From the IMG/VR virus record IMGVR_UViG_3300010401_000032, positions 90,145 through 154,144 of that record: a stretch of 64,000 nt of DNA. The stretch is one strand, 5' to 3'. A program made the translations under genes and the position numbers. This DNA is from a virus. Position 1 is the stretch's first letter, and every line of letters begins with the position of its first letter. The notes below the pieces were generated by a model that saw only the letters and a list, made by a program, of their open reading frames with translations, had not been told where the DNA came from and did no database searches. This document shows positions 30,915-61,834 of the stretch, piece by piece.

Positions 30915-30924
30915 AATACACTAA
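30915..30924 (-). promoter_or_regulatory. TTAGTGTATT element (candidate late-promoter core)
   Basis: Exact TTAGTGTATT on the minus strand, followed by ATT, and containing the TAG stop of the 695-residue gene. It precedes the small virion gene at 30152. Seven such elements lie at gene junctions in the late region; see the others for comparison. No -35 motif is shared between them. Confidence 0.5.
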
Positions 30925-33008
30925 TATGGAATAAACACTAGTTCGCGTGCGGGCATTGCTGCCCCAACGCTTGTGTCAATTCTAGCAATAGACTTAACTT
31001 CCCAGTAATTTGTTGATTCTTCAATCCGAATGATATATAAGCTTTTAATGCCAGATTTTACCCAGGCTATTATAGCGTATATACCGTCCCTTAGGTGAGT
31101 TGCCCCAGAAATTTCAATTACATCCATGATTTGGGCAGATGTAGCATGACCTATAAAGGGTGCTCCATTAATATATTTGACCATACCAAATTGTACAGTA
31201 CCACAACTAGGTGCAGAACCGTCGTCTGAAAATGGTTCTGTTCCATCAGTAACAACGTCCATTGGAATAAGTCCACTGCCGATATCGGTGCCGTTTTGCC
31301 CGCCGTAGAAAACATATTGTTTGCCACCAATATTCACTCCTCTATCCTGAATAAGTCCACTAGATACAAGTGGCACATACTTATTCAAATACTTGAAAGT
31401 ACTATCAAATTTCCAATATGGAAAACCACCGGCACCGATATCGTTACCATTGGAAACCCAATATTCATCAGCAATTGGATCATGCCATAAATCAAAAAAG
31501 AATGCACCGTCATTAACTGGAAATTGATTAGTAATATTAGGCTGAGTAACGTCTGATGTACTTGTAATTGCAGCAGATAAATCTAGTATATCGTTATATC
31601 GTCCAAGTCTTAATTGGCCCGAGTTGCTGGCAAACGGTCTTTGTATAGTCGGATGCAATCTATAGATATTATTTACGCTCGGTCTCGTAAGACCAACGAA
31701 CGTAGACCAATTACCGCTATCACTTACCGGAATCGATCCGAACGTAACTTGAGAAGCTATTGGAGTTTGATCAGCATATCTTACCCATAATGATGTAAAT
31801 GTAAATGGAGACAATAGGGCTAGACCAGAAGGATAACCAAAGTTAGATCCGGCGTATGAAGCCTGAGTATTTCTATCTGTCATCCATAGTGTATCATCAA
31901 AAACTTGATATCCTATATTAGAATTTGTGTTTGTAATAATAGAATTAGACGGCCAAGACGCCGCTGGAGTGGGCCAGTAACTAAAGATTCCGGATTCGAT
32001 TGTAGTGAAGGAGAAATTTGCAAATCTATTAATACCCGCTACTCTATAAACACCAGAGCCTTGTGATCGCGGCGTCGAAAATATTCTTGTAGTTTCCGCG
32101 TTGCCACCTAATGAAAGCGATCTAATACTATCCATGAAAAAATCAAAATCATCTGTATTAAATTTGATTCCATGCCCCAATGCTATACTTGTTTGTTCTC
32201 TTAATGCATAGCCATCGAATCTTACTACTCCAGAAAATATAGGGTCGGTTGCATAGAATTCATTCCCTGACAAAAGTTCCGGTTCCCTGCCAGTAAGTGG
32301 CACTAAAGAACCGTCCGTCTTTTGAAAAGATGGAAATATTGGAGCACATAATATCATGAACGTGTCATTAGCATTAGTATCTCCTCTTCGTCCATGGGCA
32401 GTTCTATAATCAGATCTGCTAAAAAATGGTGCCGGATTGAACATGACTTCGCCGAAGTCTATATCGTATAGAACGCCAGAAGATCCTAGTACGTCTGTAA
32501 CGTTGTAGTCGATAATACCCACTTCCGAAGGAAATCTATGGGCATTATGGCCGGTCGTAAAAAATTCTGGAGCAAAATAAAATCCACTCGGACTATCTGG
32601 ATATGCTGACTGAAACCATCCCTTTAAAAAGTCTTCATTAGAATAATCGGAGTCATTTGTATAAAAATTAAATAATGATTCCAATGCACTTCTTGTATCT
32701 TGTATGACATCTATATAGCTAAGAGAAGCGGGGGCTACCTCATTACCTAGAGTAGATCCGTTAGCCTTGGGTTCATATGGACCAGACGGAGCAATGGCCG
32801 GATTGATATAGACAAAAAAGTCTGACAAAATATGGCTGCTAACAAGCCTGCGAAATTTTCTCATTTCAGCGGTAATGATGAACTGTGCCTGCTCCAGTAA
32901 AATACCAGACGGACCTATAGCTGGACGAGCACTATAGGGCTCAGGAACCCTAAAAGATCCCTTACCTATAGCATATTCATATGGGGGTATACCTGATTGT
33001 AAAACCAT
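30921..33008 (-). CDS. Large tail-fibre or tail-tip protein
   Basis: A 695-residue protein rich in Ser, Gly, Asn and aromatic residues. The N-terminal part (RVPEPYSARPAIGPSGILLE) is followed by a mainly beta-type body with many Asn-Thr turns, as in receptor-binding or fibre proteins. I counted about fifteen Ser-Gly dipeptides by hand. No domain is recognised. It sits immediately after the 1124-residue hub (TAATGG overlap) and before the small virion gene, consistent with a component attached to the tail tip. Confidence 0.6.
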   Translation of the reverse strand: MVLQSGIPPYEYAIGKGSFRVPEPYSARPAIGPSGILLEQAQFIITAEMRKFRRLVSSHILSDFFVYINPAIAPSGPYEPKANGSTLGNEVAPASLSYIDVIQDTRSALESLFNFYTNDSDYSNEDFLKGWFQSAYPDSPSGFYFAPEFFTTGHNAHRFPSEVGIIDYNVTDVLGSSGVLYDIDFGEVMFNPAPFFSRSDYRTAHGRRGDTNANDTFMILCAPIFPSFQKTDGSLVPLTGREPELLSGNEFYATDPIFSGVVRFDGYALREQTSIALGHGIKFNTDDFDFFMDSIRSLSLGGNAETTRIFSTPRSQGSGVYRVAGINRFANFSFTTIESGIFSYWPTPAASWPSNSIITNTNSNIGYQVFDDTLWMTDRNTQASYAGSNFGYPSGLALLSPFTFTSLWVRYADQTPIASQVTFGSIPVSDSGNWSTFVGLTRPSVNNIYRLHPTIQRPFASNSGQLRLGRYNDILDLSAAITSTSDVTQPNITNQFPVNDGAFFFDLWHDPIADEYWVSNGNDIGAGGFPYWKFDSTFKYLNKYVPLVSSGLIQDRGVNIGGKQYVFYGGQNGTDIGSGLIPMDVVTDGTEPFSDDGSAPSCGTVQFGMVKYINGAPFIGHATSAQIMDVIEISGATHLRDGIYAIIAWVKSGIKSLYIIRIEESTNYWEVKSIARIDTSVGAAMPARELVFIPY

Positions 33009-36000
33009 TATGCAAATCTAAAGAGAGCACCCTTGACTATTTCTACGAAGCTTACTGTACTTGTTTGTCCGAATCCACCGCTAGGTACTGTATTAACCGT
33101 TGTCAAAAATCCTCTATCTCCTGATACTGCGAATTCTCTAAATGGCACGGGAATAACATTTGGGTATAATTGTCCGGAAGCTATACTAAATCTGCCGTCG
33201 GCCCCTATACCAAGTTCTTTACATAATGCTACGGCAGTTGGCAGCCCTTGTTCGACAACGCTAATAATTTCAACGGGAGTTACTCCAGCACCAGCTTGTT
33301 GAACTGTGCTTGTAATAAAGATTCTGTCGTTGCTGGCCCCAGGGGATACCGGTGCGTCTCCTTGAACCGCCAAAACAGTTTTATCGCCAACGTTAACAGT
33401 TCCATTGAGAACAGAAACGCCCAAGATGGCACGGTTGACCCCAAGTGTCGCTAGTGTTGTAGGGTCAACAATAGTAACGTCATATTTACTTGAATCAAAT
33501 CCGTTTACTTGGTTAACAAATACGATCGTTCCGTTGCCGAATGGGCGACCTTGAGTGAAGTATCTTAAGATAATATTGCCGTCCGGCAATTCAAAGTCGT
33601 CGGTATGATACATGGCTTCGTCACTAATGTTCAAGAAGCCGTCTATGCAAATTGCTCCGTCAACGAAGTCTGGGTTAGAAGAGTCAAATGCATGTGGTGG
33701 TTTTGTATAACCATGCTGATCGATACCACGATAGCGTTCAGGTTCTTCGGATCCAGGAGCACTGCCTAATGTGAATATATTGTTAACTTCGTTAACAGTT
33801 ACACGAACGGCCTTTTCATCCCTGTCAAAGAATAGAGGCGGGAAGAATGGATCACCTGGTAATAGTGGATCTGCCGGAGGACCAGGATTAGGATCAAGTA
33901 ATGATAGATCTGTAAAATCTATAGGATTCAAAATGCCGTTTAAGTGAGCACGAACACGTTCGCCAAGCGGGGCATCGCGTCCAAACTTCGGGAAGTAAGA
34001 CTGGATCTTATATCTTGTTAAGAATCCATCAATACCAAAGCTAATATTCAGTTCATTAACACCGTGACTGATCTCTCCATATAGTCCTGAAGGACCAATA
34101 TTTTGTTCGGCAAAAGCATCGAATGAAAGTACAGGTAGTCCTACTTGCTGAAAATCTGCATATCTAGAAGAACTGCGAGGAACTATCTTGCCCTCTACTC
34201 GACGAATGGCACGATCCGACATTACTTGTAATGAGGTCTGATTACCCTCGGGAGAGAACGCCCATGGCACGAATTGATCGTCTAGTTGAACGTCTTCGTC
34301 ACGCTCGTAATGTAAGTCTCCCAAAACCCATTGGCTAGGATATGCTTGACCATAGCGGCTACGAGATTCTATTGGAATTGCAACGCCGGAAAGTGAATCA
34401 TACACATTAAGAATAATAGATGGATTAATAATATCTAATAGCCCGGAACCGGCGAGCTTGTTTTGAATATTAATTAATGTTGCTAGCTGGCTAATAACGT
34501 TATCTTCGACAAGTCCGCCTGAGGGTCCTGCATTAACCGGCAATTGACAAAGAACAGTACCTTCCGGATAATCTTCGAATGAATAGAGTTCGTCGCTTCT
34601 AGGATTGATAACTCGATTACCGACTAACGACAGGTCTACCGGTATATAGTGTTCGCCAGATCCGTTTGGATTAAATGGAGGTGCATCTTCGGTCCAATTG
34701 CCGAAGCTGGCAGGACTATCATCGCCTTGCGGGCCATAAATAGTAAATGCCGGAAGCTTGCAGTAGGCTCTTACTCTAAAATCATCTGTCACGAATGGGC
34801 TTACGGGACCCAATAGTTTATTAATTTCATAGTCGTCAACATAAACTCCGCTGCCGCCATTGACAACAACTCCAGAAGAAGACAGTTTATAGCCTTCAAC
34901 CTGATTTTCAATATTTGCCCAGGCCGCGTCAACTAAACGGAATAGACCAGAAGCTTGATTAAATAATAGTCCTTCGGCGACATATGAACGCCCATAGTGT
35001 CTAGACGAGTGATCACGAACTCTATTATAGTATGCGATCGTCCAGTTTTGATCTTCGTCGCGACGATTGTTAATAACACGAATACCGGATGCTTCATTAC
35101 CGCCACCGAGTGCGGAAAGCGGCATGAGTGGGTCTAATCTACTTTGGAAACTAGGATCTTGAGCGGCTATAGATCCTTCGTCTGGTGGTAATCCATATCC
35201 TGTTGGCGTACCACTTGGGTCAGCACTTTGATAGATCTTAAAATAGGTCCACTGTTCAATGCCAGCAAGTGCAAGCTGTAGTTCTTTTTCGGTTGGTTTA
35301 TATGTACGATAGAAGCCGCCAGCATCATAGAAACCAATTGTAAGCTTGGACCATGCCGGATAAAATATTAATTGTATTCCGCTTGCCTGAGTATTAAGGT
35401 CAACAATACCATCCAAGCCAAAAGTATCAATCCCGTCTATGGGGCTTAGAATGTTTGAATTTATAAAGCCCTCTTGGTGGCCGCCGATAACTCTAAATCT
35501 AGTTGGATCGGGAACAACGTCCTGCCCGAAACCAAGCTGAGTTGTTTCATTGAGTCCGCTAGCACTACCGAATTCAGAAACTAAATCCAGAATGTCCGTT
35601 TCTGATATATCGAATACGGCCTTCTTATTGACAAGGTTGATCTTCTGTGCGTCCATATTCCAATACCAGTCGTATCCAGTATCGAATAATACGCGAGTTA
35701 TAACCTCGTCAAATGTATTAAGATTAAATTGGAATCTTAGGGCTTCTGACGTGCCATCAATGTTTTTTTCGATCTGTGCGACCGTAGGCAAATCGGCAAT
35801 AGGGAACGCACATTTGTTTTCATTAAAATGAAGGTCTATAGCCGTTAATATTTGGCTGTATGTTCCGCCGAATTGTAATATACGCTTATATTCTTGTATA
35901 TTAGAATCAATCGTTCCATTAATATCCGTTAGACCATTAACAATTCTAAATGCACGGGCTATAGATATGACTCCACTAGGGGCGTCCTCACTCAAGTCCT

Positions 36001-36382: not shown

Positions 36383-36385
36383 GTT

Positions 36386-39300: not shown

Positions 39301-41311
39301 AGCTAGATAATTCTGGCGGTAACGTTCTACCCCTGAATAGATCGTGTGAATTGGGTGCATTATATGTCAGTCCCCATTGAGTACTTGTATTTCCTCTTGA
39401 AAGTGTTCCGGGGAATATGCTCCATATTCGGGCCTTATCTTCTATCAGTACGTCATCCACTGTAAATGTATCGCATGGCCAATAACCCATTAATCTAGTG
39501 TCATATATCGTTCTGTAAATAGAACTGATGTCAATACCATTTTGGGCTATGAATCTAACCTCGCTAGGCAATAGAGGTCGATTGAAAACTGATATGGGAC
39601 CGAACCATGTCTTATTACCACCGGCAGCAAAAAGACCACGAGCGGCAGAATCAACTATAGTATCTTGAACACCGTTACCAAACATTAATGGATATCCACT
39701 ACCAACCAGCTTAATTAGTTGGGTCGTAAGAGAAGCAACGAGCGTACCGCTACCTTGTTGAATGCCATTAAGATAAACCGCAAGACCCTTTGTTTGATCG
39801 TCGTAAACAACGGAATAACATGCGGTGCTTGTACTATTATAACCGCTGGTGCTGGTATCTATTTCAAATAAATTAGCAGAAATATCTCCAACTGGATACG
39901 CAGAGAATCTCATTCTGTTTGGCGTACCAAACTCAGTCAGTGCTATACCGAATGTTGCAGCAGAAATTGCCGTTGGTGCGGTATTGGCCGTGTTGGATGA
40001 TACAGATCCCCACGACATAATCATGTTGTCATCGCGGCCGTTCCCGGCGGCAGCGGGACCTGCAAAGATATTAATACTCCAACTACGTGAAGATAATATA
40101 GTATCAATCATGCCGCTAGTAGCGATCATCGCAGTACTAGCAGTCGCGGCATTTTGCATTAATCCACCGCCTTTAAAAGGTCCAGGATTAACTACTGCAC
40201 TATCGGCATCGCCTTCATCGATCAAACTTATTAGCGGGAAGTGATTCTTGCTGGCGTCTGGATATCCAACTGATCTAAATGGATAATATCCAACTAAATT
40301 AGCGTCGGTTAACAATACTTCTTTTGTTGGAAGCGTTATGCTTGGTTGTGGTTGTAGACCACCAGTATTATGGAGCGTGAGCATCTCTCCTTCTGGCAAT
40401 ACTCTTCTGAATAAATAAACGCCAGAAAGTAAATGATTCCAACCGGCAGTACCAGTATAGTTATTTGTGCCCGCTGCCGCATCGTCAGAATTACCAATAC
40501 CAAATGCACGGCTTAAAATACTTGTGTTACTTAGGTCTAGTTCTACGCTAGTTGTACCACTAGCCGCTACTCGTCCGTCTTTGTATAAAACAACTTGGTT
40601 ACTAGTACCGTCTATAAACCTGTAAGTAAAAGCTATATGGGTAAATCTACCAGATTCAATAGGAATTCTTAACGACAGGGGTGATGTAGCGTTTGCACTT
40701 TCTAAAGCAATATATGCAGCTAATTGATTAGGACCACCAAATTGAGTACTACTATTCTGTGCCGCACCGGTTAGTTTACCAGAAATACCAAGGTGATACC
40801 CGCCGTTTGCATTATTATATAAGAATTGACCAATAAGAGAGTGGCAACGTGCAGATTCAGTTTCCCAATTATACGTGCCGAGGTTAGCGTCGGTGGCAAA
40901 ATTAATGTAGCCGTCGCTATTGGGATATACCCATACGCCAACAGTAATACCGCTGTTAACAACATTCTGCGACAGTGTTTGCTCGCGTGATTGCGTACTG
41001 CCATTTCCAAGAATTAGATATCGACTATAGGGAGAAGAATCTGTTCCAAGCTTCCAATAGCCTTGAGCCATATATCCAGTATTCAAAGTACCAGAAGAGG
41101 CATTAAATATGGAAGTGGTGCCGGGCCAAACTGATTTTGATCGAGCGTGATCTATGGCGGTGGCCGTAGTGGAAACCGCTACATGTAAATCGAACGACAG
41201 ACCGCTAGGATGACCCGCTCTAGTAGTAGAGTGGTTAAGAAAGAATGGGGCACCACTAGGTTCATTAAGCGGCCAGAATCCAATTAATGAGCCATCGTTA
41301 ATGTCAGCCAT
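36386..41311 (-). CDS. Large adhesin: LamG-like domains, 14-residue repeats and PKD domains
   Basis: A 1641-residue protein. Four concanavalin/LamG-type domains start with D-x-L-x-GYW/FW-type strands (near residues 7, 336, 602, 974) and end with F-RxL-x-x-EVRxxAxNG motifs. Residues about 1276-1408 hold nine 14-residue repeats of the form SG-x-x-GG-x-x-x-G. Two PKD-like domains follow (about 1450-1545 and 1545-1630), with WNFGD and LNFDDG signatures. About 38 Ser-Gly dipeptides were counted. No transmembrane or signal segment is seen. This is most likely the host-binding or carbohydrate-binding fibre of the tail. Confidence 0.75.
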   Translation of the reverse strand: MADINDGSLIGFWPLNEPSGAPFFLNHSTTRAGHPSGLSFDLHVAVSTTATAIDHARSKSVWPGTTSIFNASSGTLNTGYMAQGYWKLGTDSSPYSRYLILGNGSTQSREQTLSQNVVNSGITVGVWVYPNSDGYINFATDANLGTYNWETESARCHSLIGQFLYNNANGGYHLGISGKLTGAAQNSSTQFGGPNQLAAYIALESANATSPLSLRIPIESGRFTHIAFTYRFIDGTSNQVVLYKDGRVAASGTTSVELDLSNTSILSRAFGIGNSDDAAAGTNNYTGTAGWNHLLSGVYLFRRVLPEGEMLTLHNTGGLQPQPSITLPTKEVLLTDANLVGYYPFRSVGYPDASKNHFPLISLIDEGDADSAVVNPGPFKGGGLMQNAATASTAMIATSGMIDTILSSRSWSINIFAGPAAAGNGRDDNMIMSWGSVSSNTANTAPTAISAATFGIALTEFGTPNRMRFSAYPVGDISANLFEIDTSTSGYNSTSTACYSVVYDDQTKGLAVYLNGIQQGSGTLVASLTTQLIKLVGSGYPLMFGNGVQDTIVDSAARGLFAAGGNKTWFGPISVFNRPLLPSEVRFIAQNGIDISSIYRTIYDTRLMGYWPCDTFTVDDVLIEDKARIWSIFPGTLSRGNTSTQWGLTYNAPNSHDLFRGRTLPPELSSFGNLGITSGVFTVRGGSLGTNVVSDAGGARSSIGNLVERYKPVNEENDLASQNILGEYIIGYEVTPSGRIPITLLGSTSDSEKFDFNSTLHVYGGIGGNASPTNVGELRSFLTTIDASAGSGVTIVFQGREDVFAGTAFKPLVSGRIPFGVPSKILFHSKFDSPYNVSNETTGQAVVAIELWINGILVQTVRVPASTAKMWSAQPPNSTTESWTLNFGGEIGSNTYATQIARDGGLGEIYMRNMFVMRGIFEEHEVEALAISGILQPTIQGYTDSMPTTQVTISDSNLEGYWRFNGMTNGFSGIRDLSLKGHNLSGIIQGRILVGQGQQTATALRQLKILPGPLANSDLLIQCSGISFVDATLTNAPFYPPFAVSGVAFNNPHVGFSVGFLLVKRNDIATANTADVVLSYGILGSNSVSDTTINLDRGWVIVNDDNNDMKMVLSTAGNGYYDNSSDTSQSGQIVCGTFEGDGIYEDQTRFDVYKWGTPRPPRIDGMAHYCWVFDPVASALICYVDGTEVDRKNLKVGIDPRTGSTSGLGPWVPTNSAAKLITFLNHQNSAPWDFNTNTLNDQASILTDVFYFSRALTDNEVRYVALNGIDAAEASVVSGVMGGFIYGQDTGSGLIGGYAQGLDTSSGIIGGIITGSTACSGLFGGYISGQVFADGTIGGFIRGLDVASGLLGGYVVGSTACSGMIAGYIRGQAIGSGLFGGLILGANLTIDIGSGLLGGFIIGALQGRIEFDTSYTLEVMAAKDFDAQLEIAQTTSSDFDAKIIIFQNELPPFVDIITPNATVSGLVPPFNQYFVGFASGQQDKTIVQTRWNFGDFTPNVAGVESGISLYPIQHNFASSGFYIVRFEAIDSDGMHGSATRIVNVASGIDPVIISLSGVPRVGAAALTVDFTTVVNTIPDGVSISARLLNFDDGQTTTSSNPTHVYTRPGTYRPIWIIRDSRGVTWTDSLEAGNDYLQNGGA
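37090..37487 (-). repeat. Nine 14-residue Gly-rich tandem repeats in adhesin
   Basis: Each unit is about 42 bases and encodes a variant of SG-[hydrophobic]2-GG-[YF]-x-x-G-x3, for example GSGLIGGYAQGLDT, CSGLFGGYISGQVF and ASGLLGGYVVGSTA. Bases vary more than residues, so the repeat is maintained at protein level. It separates the LamG part from the PKD part. The GG and GxxxG spacing could form a tightly packed sheet or polyglycine-like sandwich. Confidence 0.85.
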
Positions 41312-41775
41312 TATAAGGACTCCATAATGATATGATCTCCCGTAAATGGAGATACTCTGTAGCGTTTAATGACGTTGTTGCCACCATCAAGAACATCTAA
41401 ATTAATAAATAGATGATTGGCGTCAATGATCGGCTTCTTGCTTATGAGCCATCCAGGTCTTTGGCCTTCCATATTTAATGGATAATATTCTGTAACAAAG
41501 CAATGGAGATCTGCTTCAGTCCACGCTTCAGAAGACAAAAGCCCCATGTCTTCAAAGTACTTATCTTCTGTACGAAAAGCTCTAAATAGAGAGTTCTCTT
41601 GAGCGAGAGAAAGTATAACGCCTTCGTACGTTGCAACGTCGCTTACGGCAGTGCCGCCAAGACGAAAAATTTCATCGCTGCTCTTCGTGCAGGCGATTTC
41701 TACAGATCGGTCAAAATGCGTGTTAACCGATAAAAGGCCGTTGTTGCCTTCATATTCAAATCTTGCTTTTACCAT
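41311..41775 (-). CDS. Hypothetical tail protein
   Basis: A 154-residue protein beginning MVKARFEYEGNNGLLSVNTH, acidic, with beta-rich spacing and DLHCFVTEYYPLN and PFTGDHIIMESL near the end. Its ATG has a strong TTAGGAGTAAGG binding site and is preceded by a TTAGTGTATT element at 41816-41825 and a terminator hairpin. It is followed immediately by the adhesin gene (1-base overlap). A role as adhesin partner or chaperone is inferred from this coupling. Confidence 0.65.
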   Translation of the reverse strand: MVKARFEYEGNNGLLSVNTHFDRSVEIACTKSSDEIFRLGGTAVSDVATYEGVILSLAQENSLFRAFRTEDKYFEDMGLLSSEAWTEADLHCFVTEYYPLNMEGQRPGWLISKKPIIDANHLFINLDVLDGGNNVIKRYRVSPFTGDHIIMESL

Positions 41776-41815: not shown

Positions 41816-41825
41816 AATACACTAA
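41816..41825 (-). promoter_or_regulatory. TTAGTGTATT element before adhesin operon
   Basis: Exact decamer on the minus strand, followed by TTC. It is partly inside the terminator: its TTAG is the last part of the hairpin. A transcript started here would begin just after the terminator, about 40 bases before the 154-residue gene with its good binding site. Confidence 0.45.
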
Positions 41826-41853: not shown

Positions 41854-41862
41854 TTTAACAAT

Positions 41863-41872
41863 AACACACTAA
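41863..41872 (-). promoter_or_regulatory. TTAGTGTGTT element (one mismatch)
   Basis: TTAGTGTGTT on the minus strand, followed by ATT, 3 bases after the TGA of the 61-residue gene. The context (stop, then element) is the same as at 30915, 42122 and 54924. It lies just before the terminator hairpin, so a transcript from here would be very short; this argues that the element might instead mark RNA processing. Confidence 0.35.
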
Positions 41873-41875: not shown

Positions 41876-42061
41876 TCAGAGCATATTAGTGAATGGATCG
41901 CCAGCGGCGACGCCAACACCAAGGTTATTAACCGCAGTGATTAGGCCACCACGAACAGTCGTAGAAGTCTTACGATCTGAGTGGTATTCTAACTTCGTGC
42001 TTAAGCTCCAAAGTACTGCATTTGCGTTGTTAGTGCTAGATGCTGCATTGAATGTTGCCAT
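41876..42061 (-). CDS. Small 61-residue virion-region protein
   Basis: MATFNAASSTNNANAVLW opens a Ser-, Asn- and Thr-rich protein that continues with TKLEYHSDRKTSTTVRGGL and LGVGVAAGDPF. It has an AGGAGA binding site 8 bases before its ATG, its own upstream TTAGTGTATT element (42122) and its own terminator (41822), so it forms an almost isolated transcription unit. No family recognised. Strong signals suggest abundant product, perhaps a small structural protein. Confidence 0.75.
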   Translation of the reverse strand: MATFNAASSTNNANAVLWSLSTKLEYHSDRKTSTTVRGGLITAVNNLGVGVAAGDPFTNML

Positions 42062-42121: not shown

Positions 42122-42131
42122 AATACACTAA
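42122..42131 (-). promoter_or_regulatory. TTAGTGTATT element before 61-residue gene
   Basis: Exact decamer on the minus strand, followed by ATT. It contains the TAG stop of the 216-residue gene and lies about 60 bases before the ATG of the 61-residue gene. Same placement as at 30915. Confidence 0.5.
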
Positions 42132-42778
42132 CCGCCAAATTCGTGGAATACGTCATTTAGCCAATAATTAAAGACTAATGCTAGTCTTAGAAGCCCAGAA
42201 CCACACACGCCGAAAGAACCGAGCGGAGTGCCGAGCGGGACAACAATGTTTAAATAAACGAATTCTGACGAATTCAAATCGTCTTGTGCTACTATACCAG
42301 CCGTACCATCTTGTCTAAAAACATTCTGTTTGCTTGGAACGGTCCTCGGAATACGGGCAACCGAGCCGGAAGGCAGACTTAAATTATATCTCCAAATATT
42401 ACCGCTTGGAGCATACTGCATAAATGCCCTATCTAGTCCCTGATCTTGGCTAGCTTGAAAAGCACTATCGTCCGTTAGGAACAACCTTAGATCCGAGATA
42501 GCTGTACCGCTCGCGGCAAGATTAAATGTTATGGCAGTTGGCTTAGAAGCTAGATGAGATGGCACCGGTAATGTAGTTAAATCGAATTTTGTATTTTCAA
42601 ATAGTAATGTTCCAGAAGTAGTTCCAGGTCTGAGTGGATTTGCCATCATACAACCAGAAGCGACCATCTGCTTGAATGCAAATGATCCGCCCGCTATATG
42701 ACGAGTTCCGATAGGACTTGCTGGCTCGCCAGTATCCCACTCAAAAATTCTAATTACTGGAAAATCTCCACCGGCCAT
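42128..42778 (-). CDS. Tail or fibre protein, paralog A
   Basis: A 216-residue beta-rich protein. FPVIRIFEWDTGEPASPIGT opens it; DLRLFLTDDSAFQ, FVYLNIVVPLGTPLGSFGVCG and LRLALVFNYWLNDVFH follow. The same order of strands is seen in the 185-residue gene at 42965-43522 and in the gene at 30152-30685, so these three are related. It has an extra C-terminal NDVFHEFGG. Role inferred as minor tail-tip or fibre component from position after the distal tail protein. Confidence 0.7.
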   Translation of the reverse strand: MAGGDFPVIRIFEWDTGEPASPIGTRHIAGGSFAFKQMVASGCMMANPLRPGTTSGTLLFENTKFDLTTLPVPSHLASKPTAITFNLAASGTAISDLRLFLTDDSAFQASQDQGLDRAFMQYAPSGNIWRYNLSLPSGSVARIPRTVPSKQNVFRQDGTAGIVAQDDLNSSEFVYLNIVVPLGTPLGSFGVCGSGLLRLALVFNYWLNDVFHEFGG

Positions 42779-53420: not shown

Positions 53421-53431
53421 AGTTCGGTATC

Positions 53432-54850
53432 TTAGATACCTAGAGTAGAACGCTTAAATGGCGGGCATCCTACGTTGAAGCGACTGTTACCAGTTGCGAA
53501 CACAATAATTCTATGGTTCGGTTGGAAGAAGTCGTGTGAAACGTTGAATACGTTGAAGCTAGAGTAGTTGTAAGTAACAGTCATACTGTCACCGCCAGCT
53601 TCGCCACCACCTGTTTCTGTGCTGACTAGACGATTAGCATCGCCAAGGTCAACCTGCATACCATCGCAAGTACGAATGATAATCGTATTCGATGCTGTCG
53701 TATTGTCATGTCCTCTGCAACAGTCGATTGCAGATGTTGCATCAACCAAGTCACCCTGAGCGGTAACAACTTCAATTGATGTAGTTGCTTCTAGAGGGAA
53801 TGCAGGAGCTTTGAAGTATGGACGCTTAGATCCAAGTTCGAAGATGTCATTTCTAGAAATTGCGAACGATACTGTAATCGTCTGAATGTGTTCAGCGATG
53901 AAGTCAGTATTCGCATTAGCAATCAATTGTTGAGTACCGGCTAGAGTACCAGGGCCTTGAGCACCGAAGCCACCGTTAACGAACGCGGCGTCGATACCTG
54001 AGACTGATGGTGCAATAACGCCAGGGATGTCGTTAGGTAGAATCGAACGACTAATTTCAACTTCTTCACGACGTTGAATACCAGAGCCTACAACGATGAT
54101 ACCGAAACGATCTTCGCCACCGGCAGTTTCAGCGGCACCACCCTCAACTAGTGCTGAGGTATTGCCGTCGTGTCCGAACACGCCAGAAGGAGTTCCTTCG
54201 GGGGCTTCGGGGTTGTTGCCGTCTTGATCATCGGGCCAAACGACGATTGGGTCTGCGGGACTTCCGCCGTTATTACCGGCAGTAACACCAGACACCGCAA
54301 CCATAACGCCCCAGAGCTTGTCATTACCAACTAAAGTAATGTCTTCTGTTACGAAGCCGTCAATTGGGAACGTGTAAGAAACGTTTGATACATACATACC
54401 GGAAGCTGTACAAATAGATTGTGGCTTGCCGGTTGCACGGAATTTTGTATCCGGATAAATTTCTAAAGCAATATCAACACGGTATGCGGCAGTACGAGCA
54501 ACGATGTCGTTTGCACCCGCCGGATTTGTTACCATAAAGAAGAGTGGTTTACTACCGTCAATTGCCTTCGATAGAGATACTTCAATATCGGGCTGACGTT
54601 CTGAGTACTCGTAAAGCTCTACTTGACCAATTTGGAAAACTTGTTCCAAGTTGAAAGTCGTAGTCATACTCATGCTTTGAAGACCACGCGGCACTTCCCA
54701 TAGACCATTAACTTGATCAACACCTGAGGCGAGCGGACCCGTGCTAAACTCTCTCGAATTTGCGGGTGCTACAGCCCCAGTGGGCGGTGCAGCATTATCT
54801 TTAATGGCAATCTGTTCGATTGCCCAGAAGACGCGATTATTATTAGCCAT
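53432..54850 (-). CDS. Major tail tube protein, probable
   Basis: A 472-residue protein between the connector genes and the tape measure. TTTFNLEQVFQIGQVELYEY and RQPDIEVSLSKAIDGSKPLF match the pattern of large tail-tube proteins, with strands in the order expected of the tube beta-barrel. A middle insert rich in Gly, Asp and Asn (residues about 190-260) is probably an exposed domain. A strong GGAGGG site precedes the ATG, and the gene has its own upstream TTAGTGTATT and a downstream terminator, as expected for an abundant protein. A tail sheath is the alternative, less likely. Confidence 0.65.
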   Translation of the reverse strand: MANNNRVFWAIEQIAIKDNAAPPTGAVAPANSREFSTGPLASGVDQVNGLWEVPRGLQSMSMTTTFNLEQVFQIGQVELYEYSERQPDIEVSLSKAIDGSKPLFFMVTNPAGANDIVARTAAYRVDIALEIYPDTKFRATGKPQSICTASGMYVSNVSYTFPIDGFVTEDITLVGNDKLWGVMVAVSGVTAGNNGGSPADPIVVWPDDQDGNNPEAPEGTPSGVFGHDGNTSALVEGGAAETAGGEDRFGIIVVGSGIQRREEVEISRSILPNDIPGVIAPSVSGIDAAFVNGGFGAQGPGTLAGTQQLIANANTDFIAEHIQTITVSFAISRNDIFELGSKRPYFKAPAFPLEATTSIEVVTAQGDLVDATSAIDCCRGHDNTTASNTIIIRTCDGMQVDLGDANRLVSTETGGGEAGGDSMTVTYNYSSFNVFNVSHDFFQPNHRIIVFATGNSRFNVGCPPFKRSTLGI

Positions 54851-54893
54851 TATTTCCCTCCGTTACTGGGGCACTTTGCAAAGTTATACTAAA

Positions 54894-54917: not shown

Positions 54918-54923
54918 ATAGAT

Positions 54924-54933
54924 AATACACTAA
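54924..54933 (-). promoter_or_regulatory. TTAGTGTATT element before tail tube gene
   Basis: Exact decamer on the minus strand, followed by ATC, starting right after the TAA of the 341-residue gene and about 73 bases before the tail-tube ATG. It precedes a weak hairpin, so transcripts from here would carry a structured leader. Confidence 0.5.
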
Positions 54934-55959: not shown

Positions 55960-55961
55960 AA

Positions 55962-56513
55962 TTATCCTACATCAATATTCGGTGAGGGGTTTTCGGACTC
56001 TTGAATTTCACGTAATTTTATCATAAGATATCGTCTTACGGTAAATCCAATTGGACGAGTATCCGCAATAGCGTATCTGCGACCTTCAATACTAATACTG
56101 AGGGTCTCTTTTACGTGAGGCAATGCTTCAATAACGACTGTAATCATCGCCTCATTTTCTTTTAAGAATCCTATTCCAAGTTTATCATTAGGTAGATTAA
56201 GACGAGGGCCGACAACAATATGGGCTGTATATTCTACATCACGAGTAGTAATTTTTGTGCCAGGATTTCTGGTGTTCGTGGTTGGAACAGGAACTCTACC
56301 AAAGAATGGATTATATTGTTGTGGAGCATGTTGTGCTTGGGTAACATTATCTTGTTGTATTAATGGCTGTAAATGGAAGAGTACTGGGCCTCTGCGACCG
56401 CCGAGATCTTGAAGTGCTTCATCCATAACAGAATGATAGATATTTTCCAAGAAAGGCATATTAATGATGCCGCTTCCTGCTGTTAGGTCTTCAAAATTAT
56501 TAATCAAAATCAT
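55962..56513 (-). CDS. Head closure or neck protein-like
   Basis: A 183-residue protein with FLENIYHSVMDEALQDLGGR, a Gln- and Pro-rich middle, and a beta-strand half (YTAHIVVGPRLNLPNDKLGI, SISIEGRRYAIADTRPI). It lies in the block between capsid and tail tube, so a head-tail joining role is expected. No diagnostic motif; the 183-residue size fits the class. Confidence 0.5.
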   Translation of the reverse strand: MILINNFEDLTAGSGIINMPFLENIYHSVMDEALQDLGGRRGPVLFHLQPLIQQDNVTQAQHAPQQYNPFFGRVPVPTTNTRNPGTKITTRDVEYTAHIVVGPRLNLPNDKLGIGFLKENEAMITVVIEALPHVKETLSISIEGRRYAIADTRPIGFTVRRYLMIKLREIQESENPSPNIDVG

Positions 56514-57085
56514 GGTTGCACGTATCTAAACTTGACTCTAATTTTTGCATATCCAGGGGTTATTACCTTCACTTGGTCTGCTGGATTATTTTCCCAAACT
56601 ATTTCTTTTGTACACGGATCCATGTATTCACGACTAAAACCTAGGCCACGCATGACTACGATGTGCGGGTCGGCTTTTAATACACTTCTAAATTCGCCTA
56701 TTTTTAAAGTGCCAAATGAAGGATCATTTGTGAAGGTGCCACTTGGTCCTACGTAGGCGTCCATGCCGGGCATCAACTCGCCGACAATATGAAGCCAGTC
56801 CGTGATCCAATCTCCTTCGATACCAACGCCAACAATACTGCATGGTACGTCGGTCATGACACCATTACCTCTATAGGTTCTATGATATTGTCTGCCAAGA
56901 TTCATCCACTCCACATCATTTAATTGGATGCCGAATGGAATAACGTCCGTTGGGTCATATGCATATTGCACTATCGTCATCCCAGATAACGAGCCCAAAG
57001 ATAAACATCCGCCACGTTCTTGCGTAAATGGCGTAATGAAATCTATATTGACCTGTTCGGTCTGTCTAGCAGGTAGGAGAGACAT
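56510..57085 (-). CDS. Beta-rich head or neck protein
   Basis: A 191-residue protein with QVNIDFITPFTQERGGCLSL, TIVQYAYDPTDVIPFGIQLN, CSIVGVGIEGDWITDWLHIV and GMDAYVGPSGTFTNDPSFG. The last parts resemble capsid cement or decoration folds with repeated short strands. Neighbours are head-tail joining genes, so either a decoration or joining role fits. Overlaps the upstream gene by 20 bases. Confidence 0.55.
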   Translation of the reverse strand: MSLLPARQTEQVNIDFITPFTQERGGCLSLGSLSGMTIVQYAYDPTDVIPFGIQLNDVEWMNLGRQYHRTYRGNGVMTDVPCSIVGVGIEGDWITDWLHIVGELMPGMDAYVGPSGTFTNDPSFGTLKIGEFRSVLKADPHIVVMRGLGFSREYMDPCTKEIVWENNPADQVKVITPGYAKIRVKFRYVQP

Positions 57086-57425
57086 TTTGAAGTGCTATCT
57101 TAATTTGATCAACTTTTTTCTTATGTGACCAAGTTTTGTCGTATTTTGAAACCATTAAGGGGCCAATGTTATCTATAGTAGATTCAGGCAACCATCTTAT
57201 TTCGTGATAGGTGAATGCTATTTCTGGAAATGGTTTGCCGAACAGTTTAGATAAAATACCTTCTCTATATGTACAATCGACTAATCCGTCTTTACAAGAA
57301 TTATAAACTTGAAATGGAAGATTAGTTGGTTCTTGACCACATTCCTTGCCGTATATTCTATATATAATACCCGTGTCGGCACGAATATCTAATACCCCGC
57401 GAGGCTTTTTAGCAAAGACGAGCAT
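57066..57425 (-). CDS. Hypothetical protein in head-tail joining block
   Basis: A 119-residue protein with LDIRADTGIIYRIYGKECGQ, several Cys (ECG, NSC, DCT, final TC) and CTYREGILSKLFGKPFPEIA. Not recognised. One base separates it from the stop of the 284-residue gene. Confidence 0.55.
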   Translation of the reverse strand: MLVFAKKPRGVLDIRADTGIIYRIYGKECGQEPTNLPFQVYNSCKDGLVDCTYREGILSKLFGKPFPEIAFTYHEIRWLPESTIDNIGPLMVSKYDKTWSHKKKVDQIKIALQNVSPTC

Positions 57426-57426
57426 A

Positions 57427-58281
57427 TTAATATATCATCTTTCCAAAGTTGCCGGTCATACGGCTTAAGAAGGCTTTTATAGCCGCTTCTAATTCATTGC
57501 GTCTTTGGGTCGCGTCGAACTTGTGCAGATCGGATCTAAATCCAAGACGCGAAGACGAAATAGTAACTGTCACGCCATCGGCGTTAGTAACGGAAATGCC
57601 ATCTTGTCCGACTGACGTACTGAGACCGTCTATTGCCATCAATCTCTTAAGGGCACTGATTTCGCTTTCAAGTATAATAACTTCCATTTGCATAACAACT
57701 AGATCGCAAATTTCGTCGTTATTTGGAGTGATCGTGCCAGCTTCGGGATCGGCAATAATTGGGAATACTTTAATGCGTGGGCCGCCGAAACCACCAGGAA
57801 TACCCTGAGGACGAGAAGTTGGAGAAAGTCCGAGTCTTTGATTAAGTCTTCGAACTGCCTTAACGAGAACTCTTTGTAAGAATTCATCATTAAATATTAC
57901 GCCTGCCGCATCGCCAATGTCTATACGAACTGCGTCATATATGGCACTCGTTTTATCTTCGGGGGGATTGAATCCTATGCTTACAAGCACGTCTTGCACA
58001 ACGAACGTCTCAGAGGCTTTAACTAGGCTATCTAGTAGCGTAATGATAGTCCAATCAACGTGCCATAAACCTAACTGAAATCCAGCAGGAATAATACCCG
58101 AGCCAACATAATGTCCTAATGCTGGATTTAAAGCAACTCCACTAACGGCCGAGGCGTTAGAGGCGTCGAATAATTCAAATCCAACGTATTTTCCACTGAC
58201 AGATGCACCATTAGCGGATAAGAATATATCCAAAGCAGAAGCATCTTGACCAACAGTTAAAACTTTGCTTTCTCCAGACAT
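57427..58281 (-). CDS. Head-tail connector or adaptor-like protein
   Basis: A 284-residue protein immediately after the capsid gene. The N-terminal 100 residues form a beta-type domain (GKYVGFELFDASNASAVSGV) and the rest is helical with FNDEFLQRVLVKAVRRLNQR, in line with connector adaptors of the gp6/gp15 type that carry helical bundles. Strong TTAGGAG site before the ATG. A GTAGTGTATT element and the capsid terminator lie upstream. Confidence 0.6.
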   Translation of the reverse strand: MSGESKVLTVGQDASALDIFLSANGASVSGKYVGFELFDASNASAVSGVALNPALGHYVGSGIIPAGFQLGLWHVDWTIITLLDSLVKASETFVVQDVLVSIGFNPPEDKTSAIYDAVRIDIGDAAGVIFNDEFLQRVLVKAVRRLNQRLGLSPTSRPQGIPGGFGGPRIKVFPIIADPEAGTITPNNDEICDLVVMQMEVIILESEISALKRLMAIDGLSTSVGQDGISVTNADGVTVTISSSRLGFRSDLHKFDATQRRNELEAAIKAFLSRMTGNFGKMIY

Positions 58282-58299
58282 ATGAAGCTCCTAATAAGG

Positions 58300-58309
58300 A
58301 ATACACTAC
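58300..58309 (-). promoter_or_regulatory. GTAGTGTATT element after capsid terminator
   Basis: One mismatch to the decamer. It is followed on the minus strand by CCTTATTAGGAG and then the ATG, 18 bases after the element. It lies just behind the capsid-gene terminator, as expected for a promoter that restarts transcription of the connector genes. Confidence 0.5.
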
Positions 58310-58329
58310 TTATGATCATTGTAAATACA

Positions 58330-58355
58330 GACGGCCACTCATAAGAGTGGCCGTC
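58330..58355 (-). terminator. Terminator hairpin after major capsid gene
   Basis: An 11-bp perfect stem (58330-58340 with 58345-58355) with a 4-base ATAA-type loop, followed on the minus strand by TGTATTTAC, a poor T tract. Probably limits read-through from the highly expressed capsid gene. Confidence 0.75.
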
Positions 58356-58379
58356 CGTAAGTCATACTAAGTCAAGGAC

Positions 58380-59417
58380 TTAGAACTCGCCGATTAGGAC
58401 TCTACGGCTGTCGAGAACGGCGAAGCCGTGCTCCATCCAACCGAAGATTCCGGCTCTTTGCTCGCGATAAAGTGCGGGATCTTCGTACGTCTCAAGTTCG
58501 TAACGAATTGGCATAACGAAACTATCCATTGTGGATAGGTCGAGACCAATGCAGTATTCCTTAAGAGTTGCAGAAGATACGACTGAGTGAGCGTTGCCAA
58601 GAGTTACTTCGAGGAATTCCTCGTACTCTTGACCTTCGCCGAACTCGGTCATTTCGTGAAGAACGACACCGTAAATCTGAGCTAGGCCGTATTCCTTTGA
58701 AACGAAGATTTCACGACGAGTGAACTCGTCGATTTCGTCTACGTCCCAAGCACGAATGTCTTCCATAGCTTCCATAGATAGATAAGTGTCGGTCAAACGA
58801 CCAGCATTACCGTTACCACCGGCACCACGTGTCATCGCAGTCTTCATACGGCTGAGCAATTCCTTTGTGAATTGACCAGCGGCGGCGACTGGAGATAGCG
58901 TAGAACCAGTGAATGGAGCAGTGCCGTTGGCGTGAACAATTAGACCACGACCATCGGCTGCACCAAGAATGGTACGCCAACCGTCGCTATTGATCTTGCG
59001 AACGAAACCAGCTTCATAAACACGAATGGCTCGCATAATAACGTCGAATCGTGCTTCTCTTGCGTACTTCAAAGACCAGTCAATTGAGTTACCAATTGAG
59101 AATGTGGGAACCCACAATTCATCGCCTTCAACGTGACGCTCAGGAACACGACCTTGCTTCGGTAGGGTGAAGGCCATAAACTCGTCTTCTTCACCGGGCT
59201 TAACGAAGTCAAGAGGATAATTTGCTTGGGCACCAGGAGCGAGAACTTGCTTCTCGTAGATGCCACCAAGATTGTCACGATCAAAAATGCCCTGACGAAG
59301 AGGTGCATTTAGTTCGGCTGCCAAAGCCTTCTGTGCTTGACCGCGAACCTCTGTATCAGAGCTTGCAGTAGCACGAAGTGCTTCAATTGCTTCTTGCGGA
59401 TAACGGTTGTAATTCAT
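58380..59417 (-). CDS. Major capsid protein
   Basis: A 345-residue protein in the position of the capsid gene, directly after protease-scaffold and decoration genes and before connectors. GIYEKQVLAPGAQANYPLDF, then TFSIGNSIDWSLKYAREARF and VMRAIRVYEAGFVRKINSDGW give a mostly helical-plus-strand layout typical of HK97-fold proteins with an N-arm and spine helix. An AAGGAG site precedes the ATG. A strong terminator follows. No Ser-Gly dipeptide is seen, unlike the tail proteins. Identification is by position and pattern. Confidence 0.8.
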   Translation of the reverse strand: MNYNRYPQEAIEALRATASSDTEVRGQAQKALAAELNAPLRQGIFDRDNLGGIYEKQVLAPGAQANYPLDFVKPGEEDEFMAFTLPKQGRVPERHVEGDELWVPTFSIGNSIDWSLKYAREARFDVIMRAIRVYEAGFVRKINSDGWRTILGAADGRGLIVHANGTAPFTGSTLSPVAAAGQFTKELLSRMKTAMTRGAGGNGNAGRLTDTYLSMEAMEDIRAWDVDEIDEFTRREIFVSKEYGLAQIYGVVLHEMTEFGEGQEYEEFLEVTLGNAHSVVSSATLKEYCIGLDLSTMDSFVMPIRYELETYEDPALYREQRAGIFGWMEHGFAVLDSRRVLIGEF

Positions 59418-59428
59418 ATAGTTCTCCT

Positions 59429-59896
59429 TTATAGTTCAAGGCTAATCTTTAAGAACCCGTCAGCCGTACGAGCACTAAGTGCTTTACCGACGACTACTCG
59501 TCTGGCAGCAATTTGTTGACGGCTGACTTTTCCATTATCAGCGAGATAGAGTACGTCGCCTGGAGCGTAAGTACCAACTGATGCACCATCGGCTGTAGTA
59601 GTTTCTACGAAGTCAGTCCAGAAATCACCTTCCGTTGCTAGGCCGACAACACTGCCTGCCGAAACAACGTTACGCTGACGATACTCGGGAGCGTTAAAAG
59701 CATTGAGTGCTTCAACGTCGTCCATGAGTAAACCAGCGGGTTTTGAAAGTTGACCTGAAACTGCGGTTGCATTACCGTATTCGCCTAGACCAGCTACACC
59801 GGGAACAAAAGAGATGATACCTCCGCGTTCTGCGACACCAGAAACAGTAACGTCAATATTTGTCTCAAATACTTGACGGCTTTCTTTTAATGCCAT
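59429..59896 (-). CDS. Head decoration protein
   Basis: A 155-residue beta-rich protein directly upstream of the capsid gene. GGIISFVPGVAGLGEYGNAT, SAGSVVGLATEGDFWTDFVE and GTYAPGDVLYLADNGKVSRQ have the short-strand, Gly-rich look of trimeric capsid-stabilising proteins. GGAGGC site 9 bases before the ATG. Decoration proteins often lie in this order (protease, decoration, capsid). Confidence 0.7.
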   Translation of the reverse strand: MALKESRQVFETNIDVTVSGVAERGGIISFVPGVAGLGEYGNATAVSGQLSKPAGLLMDDVEALNAFNAPEYRQRNVVSAGSVVGLATEGDFWTDFVETTTADGASVGTYAPGDVLYLADNGKVSRQQIAARRVVVGKALSARTADGFLKISLEL

Positions 59897-59907
59897 AATA
59901 AGCCTCC

Positions 59908-61812
59908 TTATAGAACGGGATCGAAGCCCGGCTTACTTGCCGGAGCTTTTTCTTCTTTTTCACCACGACCAGCCAAAACCGTTGACGCTAACACGCGGAA
60001 CGGATTGACTGTCTCACCCTCGTCACCAACTTGTGAACCGGCAAGCTGGACGCCACCCTTGGCTTGAGCGTTCTCAAGCATCTTGGCAGGATCGTTCCCG
60101 GCGGTTTCACCAGCAATTTTGTAACGCGGTGTTCTTAATTGACCTGGATTAACTCCACTCTTAACATTGGTTTCGCCAGTGTTAGTAGGATTGATTAAAT
60201 CAGGTTCGTTTGGATTACCATTCATCGTATCCGGATTGGCGGTGCCACTCTCAGAACGACGCTTTGCTAGCAATGATTCAAAGACGTTTGCACATCCCTT
60301 GTCCGCTGGCTTTTGATCTTTGGCCTTTTTAGCCTTCTTCTCATCCATAGCGTTTTGCATTGCGGGCGGTAATTCTTTCTTTGCACCACGTGTGAGTTCA
60401 AGAACCATTAGTTCCTTCTCATCACGCCAGTGCGTATATTCTGCTTGAGATAGTGAAGAAGCATGTGCAACAAATGTTTCTAGTGCTTCTTCGGAAATCA
60501 CTTCGCCGAGCAATGAACGAACGTCTTGCTCACGAACGACTGACTCCGCTTCCGCTAGTTGTGCTTCAAGTTCTGATGCACGTGCGGCTCTTGAACGAAG
60601 TGATGCCATGGAGTTTTGAATCCAAGCAATCTTTGCCTTAAAAGCTTCTTCGCCCGTCTTTGCGGCGTCAATCTTAGCGATTTCAGGAGGAGTGTCGTCT
60701 GTTGCTCCTGCTGTTACATGATCATTAACTAGTTGATCAACCAATGAAGAATATTCATCGAGTTGGCCGCGAAGGGCGTCTAGTTCTGTCTTCTTGTTTT
60801 CTTGTGCTGTATTAAGTTCATTTAGCTTCTGACCTAATTCAACGCTTTGGTTTTCAGCTTGCGTTGCACGAGCAACTAAAGCTGCATGTTCACGCTCCGC
60901 TGCTGCAACCTTTTCTCTTTTATCGAGAACGGTTTCAACCGCAGAAGCAATAACTTCGGGCACGCCTTCGCCCTTTAGTTGTGCTGATGTATTCATAAAA
61001 ATTTCCTCCAGATGATCATTTCCTTGTAATTCAGTTAACTGTTGGAGCAAGAGTGCGATTTGCGACTCTGTGGGTTGCTCCGCTAAAGAGTTCATAGGCT
61101 CTACAGCCTCTATCACGGAACGCTTATTTGCGGGACGGTCCACAAAACCGCAGCCTCCAAAGGTAATTGACCTTAGGACGCGACCGATCCGCACATCGTC
61201 ATCCTTTTCAGGATGGCGATATACCCCGGTTCCTTTGTTAGCACGAAGATGCTCATCAAGGAACGCGGAGAACTTATTTCGGGTTACTACTTCACTTAGT
61301 TGACCTGTAGCCTTATCACAGAATCCATAACTATAATCATCAAACCATGCTTCCATGGAAACGTATAGCGAATTAGACTTAGAACGACGAGCGATTTCGC
61401 TAGCACGTTCCGGCTGTATCAAACTAAAAACAGCAGCTTCAACCCAAAGATCAAAGTCACGATCTGGAACAGCAGGACTATTAATGTCTAATATATTGCC
61501 GTTGAGATCGCGAGCTTGTACTGTATAAATAACACCAAGAATGTCTTTATCGTTATGTTGCCAATTAAACGGCTTTAAAACTGGGGTGTGACGAGCAGCC
61601 CAAGCTTCTTCACGAGTGAAGATATCGTCGTTTTCATTTGTACCAGCGGTGGGGCCGGCAGAAACTAAACAAGAACGAACATAAAGTAAATCCATTTGTG
61701 GCTTTAAATCAAAACCATAGCGGTCTTTTAGAGACGACGCGATGGCCTTAAATTCGTCAGACTTAGGTTCTAAAACCTCTGCCTTAGCCGTTAATGTTGT
61801 GCGATATTTCAT
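59908..61812 (-). CDS. Prohead protease fused to scaffold domain
   Basis: A 634-residue protein. Residues 1-240 look like an XkdF/T4-gp21-like prohead protease: KPFNWQHNDKDILGVIYTV holds His86, and NSLYVSMEAWFDD holds Ser152, the likely His-Ser pair, followed by VLRSITFGGCGFVDRPANK. Residues about 290-450 form a coiled coil (REKVAAAEREHAALVARATQ, LDALRGQLDEYSSLVDQL), as in scaffolds that line the inside of the prohead. The C-terminal part is Lys-, Asn- and Gly-rich and may be cleaved. The next genes are decoration and capsid. Catalytic residues are predicted, not proven. Confidence 0.7.
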   Translation of the reverse strand: MKYRTTLTAKAEVLEPKSDEFKAIASSLKDRYGFDLKPQMDLLYVRSCLVSAGPTAGTNENDDIFTREEAWAARHTPVLKPFNWQHNDKDILGVIYTVQARDLNGNILDINSPAVPDRDFDLWVEAAVFSLIQPERASEIARRSKSNSLYVSMEAWFDDYSYGFCDKATGQLSEVVTRNKFSAFLDEHLRANKGTGVYRHPEKDDDVRIGRVLRSITFGGCGFVDRPANKRSVIEAVEPMNSLAEQPTESQIALLLQQLTELQGNDHLEEIFMNTSAQLKGEGVPEVIASAVETVLDKREKVAAAEREHAALVARATQAENQSVELGQKLNELNTAQENKKTELDALRGQLDEYSSLVDQLVNDHVTAGATDDTPPEIAKIDAAKTGEEAFKAKIAWIQNSMASLRSRAARASELEAQLAEAESVVREQDVRSLLGEVISEEALETFVAHASSLSQAEYTHWRDEKELMVLELTRGAKKELPPAMQNAMDEKKAKKAKDQKPADKGCANVFESLLAKRRSESGTANPDTMNGNPNEPDLINPTNTGETNVKSGVNPGQLRTPRYKIAGETAGNDPAKMLENAQAKGGVQLAGSQVGDEGETVNPFRVLASTVLAGRGEKEEKAPASKPGFDPVL

Positions 61813-61824
61813 ATCCTATTAAGG

Positions 61825-61834
61825 AATAAACTAA
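61825..61834 (-). promoter_or_regulatory. TTAGTTTATT element before protease-scaffold gene
   Basis: One mismatch to the decamer. It is followed on the minus strand by CCTTAATAGGAT, then ATG, 12 bases after the element. The arrangement closely matches that at 58300-58309 (decamer, CCTTAxTAGGA, ATG). Confidence 0.45.

Follow-up and report, generated by a model that had tools for sequence, protein, structure and literature searches.

A conserved decamer at gene junctions as the predicted late promoter element of a phage clade

The late promoter element of phage T4 is TATAAATA. The T4 late promoters (gp55, gp33, gp45) consist of a short single element without a -35 box, with the strand-separating segment immediately downstream, and are served by a small sigma factor that has only a domain-2 equivalent (PMC2988020), features that the system proposed here would share. 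The gp47 late promoters of phage 7-11, by comparison, are bipartite (GTAAtg-(16)-aCTA) and belong to a phage sigma factor that does possess region 4 (PMC8948821), an arrangement different from the one described below. In phiEco32, gp36 reads tAATGTAtA alone, with transcription starting 6 to 8 bp downstream, and its promoters lack a -35 element because gp36 lacks region 4 (PMC8948821). These gp36 middle and late promoters (PMC8948821, PMC4331800) are the nearest characterised case to the element described here, with which they have in common a single -10-like element, without a -35 box, lying ahead of late genes in the sense orientation.

The window, i.e., the whole 64,000-nucleotide stretch that was analysed (positions 90,145 to 154,144 of IMG/VR record IMGVR_UViG_3300010401_000032), is part of a 161-kb phage genome in which the decamer TTAGTGTATT occurs eight times, including four copies within the window. 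When counted genome-wide in both orientations, all eight exact copies were found at gene junctions in the sense orientation; the corresponding pattern gave 39 matches, versus 8 for its reversed control. Within the window, 14 matches with at most one mismatch were found on the two strands, exceeding the number in each of 100 shuffled sequences (mean, 6.3). Seven one-mismatch matches (3480, 7753, 15633, 21578, 25894, 37594 and 43692) are intragenic or antisense and have background-level scores; the signal in the window resides in the exact and junction copies. Nor is the decamer equally common inside genes or on the other strand: 58 of 73 exact copies are junction-sense, versus a background of 7% (P ~1e-53). 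Across 12 genomes, TTAGTGTA was the highest-ranking junction word, with 89 junction occurrences observed versus 1.4 expected from gene bodies. The consensus of the decamer is TTAGTGTANT, and a literature search for TTAGTGTA combined with "late promoter" returned no match. Aligned with phiEco32, TAATGTATA agrees with TAGTGTATT at 7 of 9 positions or with TAGTGTATA at 8 of 9; the form found here (TAGTGTANT, 7-8/9 identical) thus departs from the phiEco32 consensus itself, tAATGTAtA, its third position being G rather than A and its TAG being preceded by a fixed T. The 7/9 match of the decamer to tAATGTAtA is modest, being equalled by 3.5% of shuffled decamers. Additionally, the genome of this phage is about twice as large as that of phiEco32, with no shared DNA. 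In contrast to the T4 promoters, finally, the element is not TATAAATA-like.

The seven positions listed in the preliminary description were recovered as given, each of them on the minus strand, where the genes at these loci are encoded. Six of them are backed by orthologous sites in relatives, starting with the exact match at 30915..30924 (PWM score, 19.3), predicted to serve gene 30152-30685, whose orthologue is preceded by a site in 15 of 16 genomes. The TAG of this element doubles as the stop codon of gene 30921-33008; the observation that four sites overlap or touch the preceding stop is explained simply by the TAG within the decamer: at 83 of 233 sites, this triplet terminates the gene lying upstream. 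A second exact match, at 41816..41825, is predicted to serve gene 41311-41775 and has a GC-rich hairpin directly 5' of it (terminator-like stem, 41854-41821), with the TTAGT of the element belonging to the stem; this pairing of hairpin and element was kept at the orthologous locus in most relatives. About 300 nt away, the exact match at 42122..42131 (PWM score, 20.5) sits at the end of gene 42128-42778 and is predicted to serve a 61-aa open reading frame (41876-42061). The double arrangement recurs in relatives: 15 of 16 genomes have sites orthologous to those at 41816 and 42122, most of them two. The fourth exact match, at 54924..54933, is the predicted promoter element of gene 53432-54850, which encodes a 472-aa protein (mean identity among relatives, 75%); the site was present in 15 of 17 genomes, 53 to 88 nt ahead of the gene.

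Two of the one-mismatch sites are likewise backed by relatives. The variant GTAGTGTATT at 58300..58309 (PWM score, 15.1) follows a hairpin located 3' of the major capsid gene and is predicted to serve gene 57427-58281, with orthologous sites in 13 of 18 genomes, TTAGTGTATT or TTAGTGTACT in most. The variant TTAGTTTATT at 61825..61834 is the predicted promoter element of gene 59908-61812, by way of which it would also serve the 155-aa gene and the major capsid gene. A site is found here in 17 of 17 genomes, and 13 of the 17 carry the same G-to-T variant ahead of the 634-aa gene. The layout around CCTTAxTAGGA that had been pointed out at 58300 and 61825 is indeed common to both sites but is not conserved in their orthologues. 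A further variant, TTAGAGTACT at 63884..63893 (minus strand; PWM score, 13.0), did not appear in the preliminary list; it is predicted to serve gene 62970-63863, and 14 of 17 genomes carry a site ahead of the orthologous gene, most commonly in the form TTAGAGTATT. The remaining one-mismatch site, TTAGTGTGTT at 41863..41872, is without comparative support. Since it alters an A that is otherwise 99% invariant, and since none of the other genomes shows the variant at this locus, we regard it as probably a chance match rather than a working element.

Among the related phage records, the orientation of the word followed gene direction in 18 of 18, and a given orthologous gene was preceded by a site in as many as 17 of 17 phages; individual genes, including the portal gene and the gene block preceding the capsid gene, had sites in 13 to 17 genomes each. 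In distant relatives, which were assessed by pattern counts and by loci no longer than 21 kb, the element has drifted to TRGTGTATWWT, the general form in the wider clade, and the density of GTGTA at 36 distant loci was 4.0 per kb in sense junctions versus 0.5 to 0.6 elsewhere. The form GTGTATAAT, seen in distant relatives, includes TATAAT. The element was clearly kept in G014, G017 and G018, with a strand ratio of 5:1 for TWRGTGTATWWT and of 7:0 for GTGTA in late junctions in G018, and was weakly supported in G022 and G025 (2:0 and 3:1 in late junctions). Capsid-related loci of this large, uncultivated clade number over 560 in IMG/VR. In the phage collection searched, no close isolate was found by DNA, by the 472-aa gene or by two of the sigma-like proteins discussed below, sigma A and sigma C (chance-level matches for the latter). 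Terminase matches were to distant phages (23 to 33%), and the capsid protein reached a single isolate, Bacillus phage G (25%), in which the strand bias of the motif is weak (89:64, versus 69:63 for the control).

On the basis of 84 aligned contexts, no information was found at positions -40 to -2, in agreement with the initial observation that there is no shared -35 box, and positions +10 to +14 are G-poor. The decamer sites thus do not have the bacterial sigma-70 layout (TTGACA, 16 to 18 bp, TATAAT), the -35 signal being absent; a separate TTGACA/TATAAT class was found in the same genomes. Element and gene are separated by as little as a few and as much as about 90 nt, and 40 of 225 sites (18%) have a GC-rich hairpin ending just 5' of the decamer, versus 6 of 225 controls. 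Judging from these sequence comparisons, the decamer is very probably a phage-specific late promoter. That it might be the promoter core of a phage sigma factor, as was proposed at the outset, is well supported by the junction and sense enrichment, the single element without a -35 box, the orthologous late genes and the fit with phiEco32. The factor then put forward as its reader, encoded at 18770-19375, is probably the wrong one; it is one of three sigma-like proteins (A, B and C) encoded by the genome.

The reading we favour, with some confidence, is that the decamer constitutes the whole late-promoter recognition element, -10-like, and that sigma C most likely reads it. Sigma C (genome positions 1241-1831, outside the window) is encoded just upstream of the terminase-portal block and is the most conserved of the three. 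Searches recovered it from 11 of the 12 distant phage records and from 15 of 18 close ones, of which the three without it are fragments of 29 to 68 kb. In G018, where the motif is clearly kept, it is the only sigma-like protein found. As a sigma factor it is weakly recognisable: its Pfam Sigma70_r2 match scores 13 bits, below the cut-off, and its structural model (pLDDT, 72) matches sigma domain-2 folds only at high Foldseek E-values. No region 4 or helix-turn-helix match was obtained in Pfam and NCBIfam, so that the candidate reader resembles gp36, which has no region 4 homology either. The distant sigma C of G025 matches phrog_1740, the PHROG of phiEco32 gp36, at 1e-5; a direct profile comparison between sigma C and gp36 was not significant, and gp36 is without the conserved Cys cluster (CVRC..C..C) of sigma C. 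Kinship with T4 gp55 was rejected for sigma C and sigma A alike, as neither matches gp55 or its PHROG family, phrog_234.

Sigma A (18770..19375, minus strand) appears an unlikely reader, even though it is a clear member of the sigma-70 family (Pfam Sigma70_r2, 5e-9; Sigma70_r4, 0.04). It is encoded in a replication-gene block, together with a DnaB-like helicase and Pol III alpha, and T4 gene 55 likewise lies near replication genes. The block is preceded by a host sigma-70-type promoter (TTGACA-16-CATAAT at 30077..30104, minus strand; 11 of 12 consensus bases), a type also found ahead of the orthologous gene in G004 and, in weaker form, in G006; since a sigma-70-like promoter adjoins sigma A just 5' in the reference genome, the protein could be made before the late genes. 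However, sigma A has diverged rapidly (31 to 51% identity to most relatives and barely recognisable, at 20 to 22%, in the syntenic candidates of G014 and G017) while the element remained unchanged. Furthermore, it was not found in G018, where the element persists, or in G022, G025 and G026, all of which keep sigma C, although profile searches may miss divergent copies. Its weak region-4-like C terminus also fits poorly with an element that has no -35 partner.

Slightly less likely still is a reading by sigma B, by a host alternative sigma factor or by host sigma-70 redirected by a phage activator. Points in its favour are that no other protein of the genome matches sigma factors as strongly as sigma B does (phrog_351, 1.5e-21) and that GTGTATAAT contains TATAAT. 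Yet in 10 of 11 genomes the sigma B operon itself has the element at its head, which places sigma B downstream; sigma B was not found in G018, G022 and G025, with the same reservation about divergent copies; and the host sigma-70 promoters form a class of their own. Apart from sigma-70 boxes and tRNA and terminator words, no further junction word stood out as a possible third class of promoter that sigma A or sigma B might use.

An RNA-level signal, either a processing site or part of a composite terminator, is improbable. The location of sites in leaders and the excess of hairpins over controls would suit it, and processing had initially been suggested by the site at 41863, now without comparative support. 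We rejected this option, however, given that hairpins are missing at 82% of sites, that the sites have neither a structure nor flanking sequence in common, with nothing shared upstream of the decamer, and that the distance to the next gene is variable; the bases past the element are G-poor in a constant register, which fits promoter melting, and the hairpins fit terminators set right ahead of a new start. An operator or other DNA-binding site, not itself contacted by polymerase, would account for a short, strongly conserved word in variable surroundings but is highly improbable for a nonpalindromic decamer that has a single orientation relative to the downstream gene and is not accompanied by a separate promoter element at constant spacing.

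Returning to sigma C, we infer the promoter status, start point and reading factor of the decamer as follows. Host RNA polymerase carrying the phage-made sigma factor, with its region 2 and no recognisable region 4, would bind the decamer immediately 5' of the transcription start, in the manner of a -10 box acting without a -35 box, and melt the AT-rich, G-poor bases downstream, with transcription starting some 6 to 9 bases past the element, as in phiEco32. Host sigma-70 promoters (TTGACA/TATAAT) would drive the early genes and sigma C the late genes, with sigma B, its operon being headed by the element, itself a late product. We tentatively speculate, as a possibility we hold less likely than the reading by sigma C itself, that late transcription in this clade involves an undescribed family of Cys-cluster, region-2-only sigma factors and a clade-specific, drifting element, which would also feed at least one further phage sigma factor, sigma B, in a three-sigma cascade.

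Gene-specific variants that are kept across the clade, such as TTAGTTTATT ahead of the 634-aa gene in 13 of 17 genomes, suggest single-base tuning of promoter strength. Sigma C has drifted as well as the element (A to G ahead of GTGTA), which provides a natural data set bearing on -10 choice by a minimal, region-2-only sigma factor. Finally, for this clade, which has no close isolate in the collection searched, the findings supply both a signal marking late genes and a candidate for its reader, so that sequence alone may suffice to call late operons in many metagenomic phages.

The preliminary description had named seven sites in the window (30915, 41816, 41863, 42122, 54924, 58300 and 61825), and these were correctly placed, the minus strand being the coding strand there. 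Counted over both strands of the 161,114-base record, of which the window covers bases 90145 to 154144, the decamer occurs in eight exact copies (two plus, six minus), all at gene junctions and oriented with the downstream gene. One-mismatch copies within genes looked random, with the exception of TTAGTGTACT, which is mostly junctional too. One further site in the window, at 63884 (TTAGAGTACT), had been missed, and that at 41863, listed as a one-mismatch copy, was unsupported.

The record belongs to a phage; it contains capsid, portal and terminase genes and also encodes Pol III alpha, a DnaB-like helicase and glycosyltransferases; at least six glycosyltransferase-like genes lie in a row at window positions 11142-18773, and an IMP dehydrogenase is found at 8695-9720. 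A 24.5-kb stretch of it had no DNA relatives among 50,697 phage records. Judged by capsid protein, 19 loci in IMG/VR are close, out of a total exceeding 560; our comparison set consisted of 18 genomes or fragments, each read whole.

TTAGTGTAYT tracks the gene strand in all 18 of these records, its reversed control being rare. In 12 genomes, 58 of 73 exact copies were junctional and in sense (expectation, 7%; P about 1e-53), and TTAGTGTA was the most over-represented junction 8-mer of all (89 versus 1.4 expected). The weight matrix from the 18 records reads T T A G T G T A N T; position 9 is T in 63%, position 6 is G or T and position 5 is T or A. Scores of at least 12 were reached 213 times at junctions in sense, compared with 52 times in sense within genes, 16 times antisense in genes and 15 times antisense at junctions. 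Among 36 distinct loci of the wider clade (capsid identity, 48-68%), GTGTA occurs 4.0 times per kb at sense junctions; the figure is 0.54 for the opposite orientation and 0.5-0.6 within genes (P about 1e-36). Its flanks drift: G mostly precedes it, and a TATAAT-like sequence often follows.

Across 84 contexts, conservation was nil at -40 to -2, and there is therefore no -35 box, as originally proposed. G is scarce in the five bases 3' of the decamer (4 to 14 of the 84) and again preferred 8-11 bases past it. The next start codon follows at 18-73 nt in the middle half of cases. At 83 of 233 sites, the TAG of the element is the upstream gene's stop codon. A GC-rich hairpin ends immediately 5' of 40 of 225 elements, versus 6 of 225 controls, which fits a terminator set right ahead of a new start. 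The stem at 41816 includes the element's first bases. Judged by sequence, the element very probably acts as a promoter.

With regard to amber codons, a tRNA with a CUA anticodon, labelled tRNA-Pyl by ARAGORN and of the amber-suppressor type, is encoded outside the window at genome positions 42285-42361, as well as in G006, G007, G009 and G012 (5 of 18 records altogether). Despite this tRNA, a substantial fraction of the genes in these phages terminate in TAG (in the present genome, 28 of 169). A late element, TTAGTTTATT, lies immediately 3' of the tRNA here.

The sites recur before orthologous genes: upstream of portal in 15 of 17 genomes, of gene 57427-58281 in 13 of 18, of gene 53432-54850 in 15 of 17, of gene 41311-41775 in 15 of 16 (two sites in most) and of gene 30152-30685 in 15 of 16. 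The 634-amino-acid gene ahead of the capsid gene (59908-61834, including its promoter) has one in 17 of 17. Because that gene keeps the off-consensus TTAGTTTATT in 13 of 17 genomes, the variant at 61825, originally listed as a mismatch, is conserved, and the retained base suggests selection for a weaker promoter. The 230-nt leader at 30915 is probably shorter in reality, since the upstream frame holds the N terminus that orthologs possess: gene 30152-30685 is apparently 40-60 residues short of them, and the missing part (30686-30920) is open in the same frame without an ATG, GTG or TTG start. The extended frame perhaps begins at ATT.

Among known late-promoter systems, sigma factor gp36 of phage phiEco32 recognizes tAATGTAtA, transcription starting 6-8 bp beyond it; gp36 has no region 4, which accounts for the missing -35 box (PMC8948821). 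Our element is identical to that sequence at seven of nine bases, or eight of nine in the form ending in A. T4 late promoters act similarly (PMC2988020) but differ in sequence, and no kinship to the T4 late sigma factor gp55 was found.

Three distinct sigma-70-like proteins are encoded in this single genome, a pattern retained in most close relatives: sigma A (window 18770-19375; genome 108914-109519), sigma B (genome 71230-71748) and sigma C (genome 1241-1831), which, assuming a circularly permuted record, directly precedes the terminase-portal block. Sigma B is 25-57% identical to its orthologs, has a region-4-like end and stands in an operon that bears the element in 10 of 11 genomes. Sigma A, initially suggested as the reader, also has a region-4-like end; its identity is 31-51% to most orthologs and 20-22% to the G014 and G017 candidates. 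Sigma C shares 44-72% identity with its orthologs. Among the 18 close records it was found in 15, and the three without it are fragments of 29-68 kb; of 12 distant phage records, 11 have it. It was the only Sigma70_r2 protein found in relatives G018 (170 kb) and G025 (166 kb), and profile searches detected neither sigma A nor sigma B in G018, G022 or G025. G018 retains the element (TWRGTGTATWWT, 5:1 on strands and 7:0 in late junctions); support in G022 and G025 is thin. No region 4 match was found in sigma C, as expected for a promoter with no -35 box. One distant sigma C protein matches the PHROG of gp36 at 1e-5, though gp36 and the sigma C profile, when compared directly, gave no significant match. 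We infer that sigma C is a considerably likelier reader than sigma A, and from these sequences its assignment to the element seems reasonably probable. Upstream of the sigma C operon (locus L009, 2367-2572, and the equivalent region of relatives), several genomes share an A-rich GCTTRAAAA..GGGAAAAA followed by a GTACTAT-like sequence, which may represent a further class of promoter or a weak site of self-regulation.

TTGACA/TATAAT boxes make up the second class of junction words. One such promoter (window 30104-30077), matching at 11 of 12 bases, stands in front of the replication block containing sigma A, which suggests that the early genes of this phage are under the control of host sigma-70.
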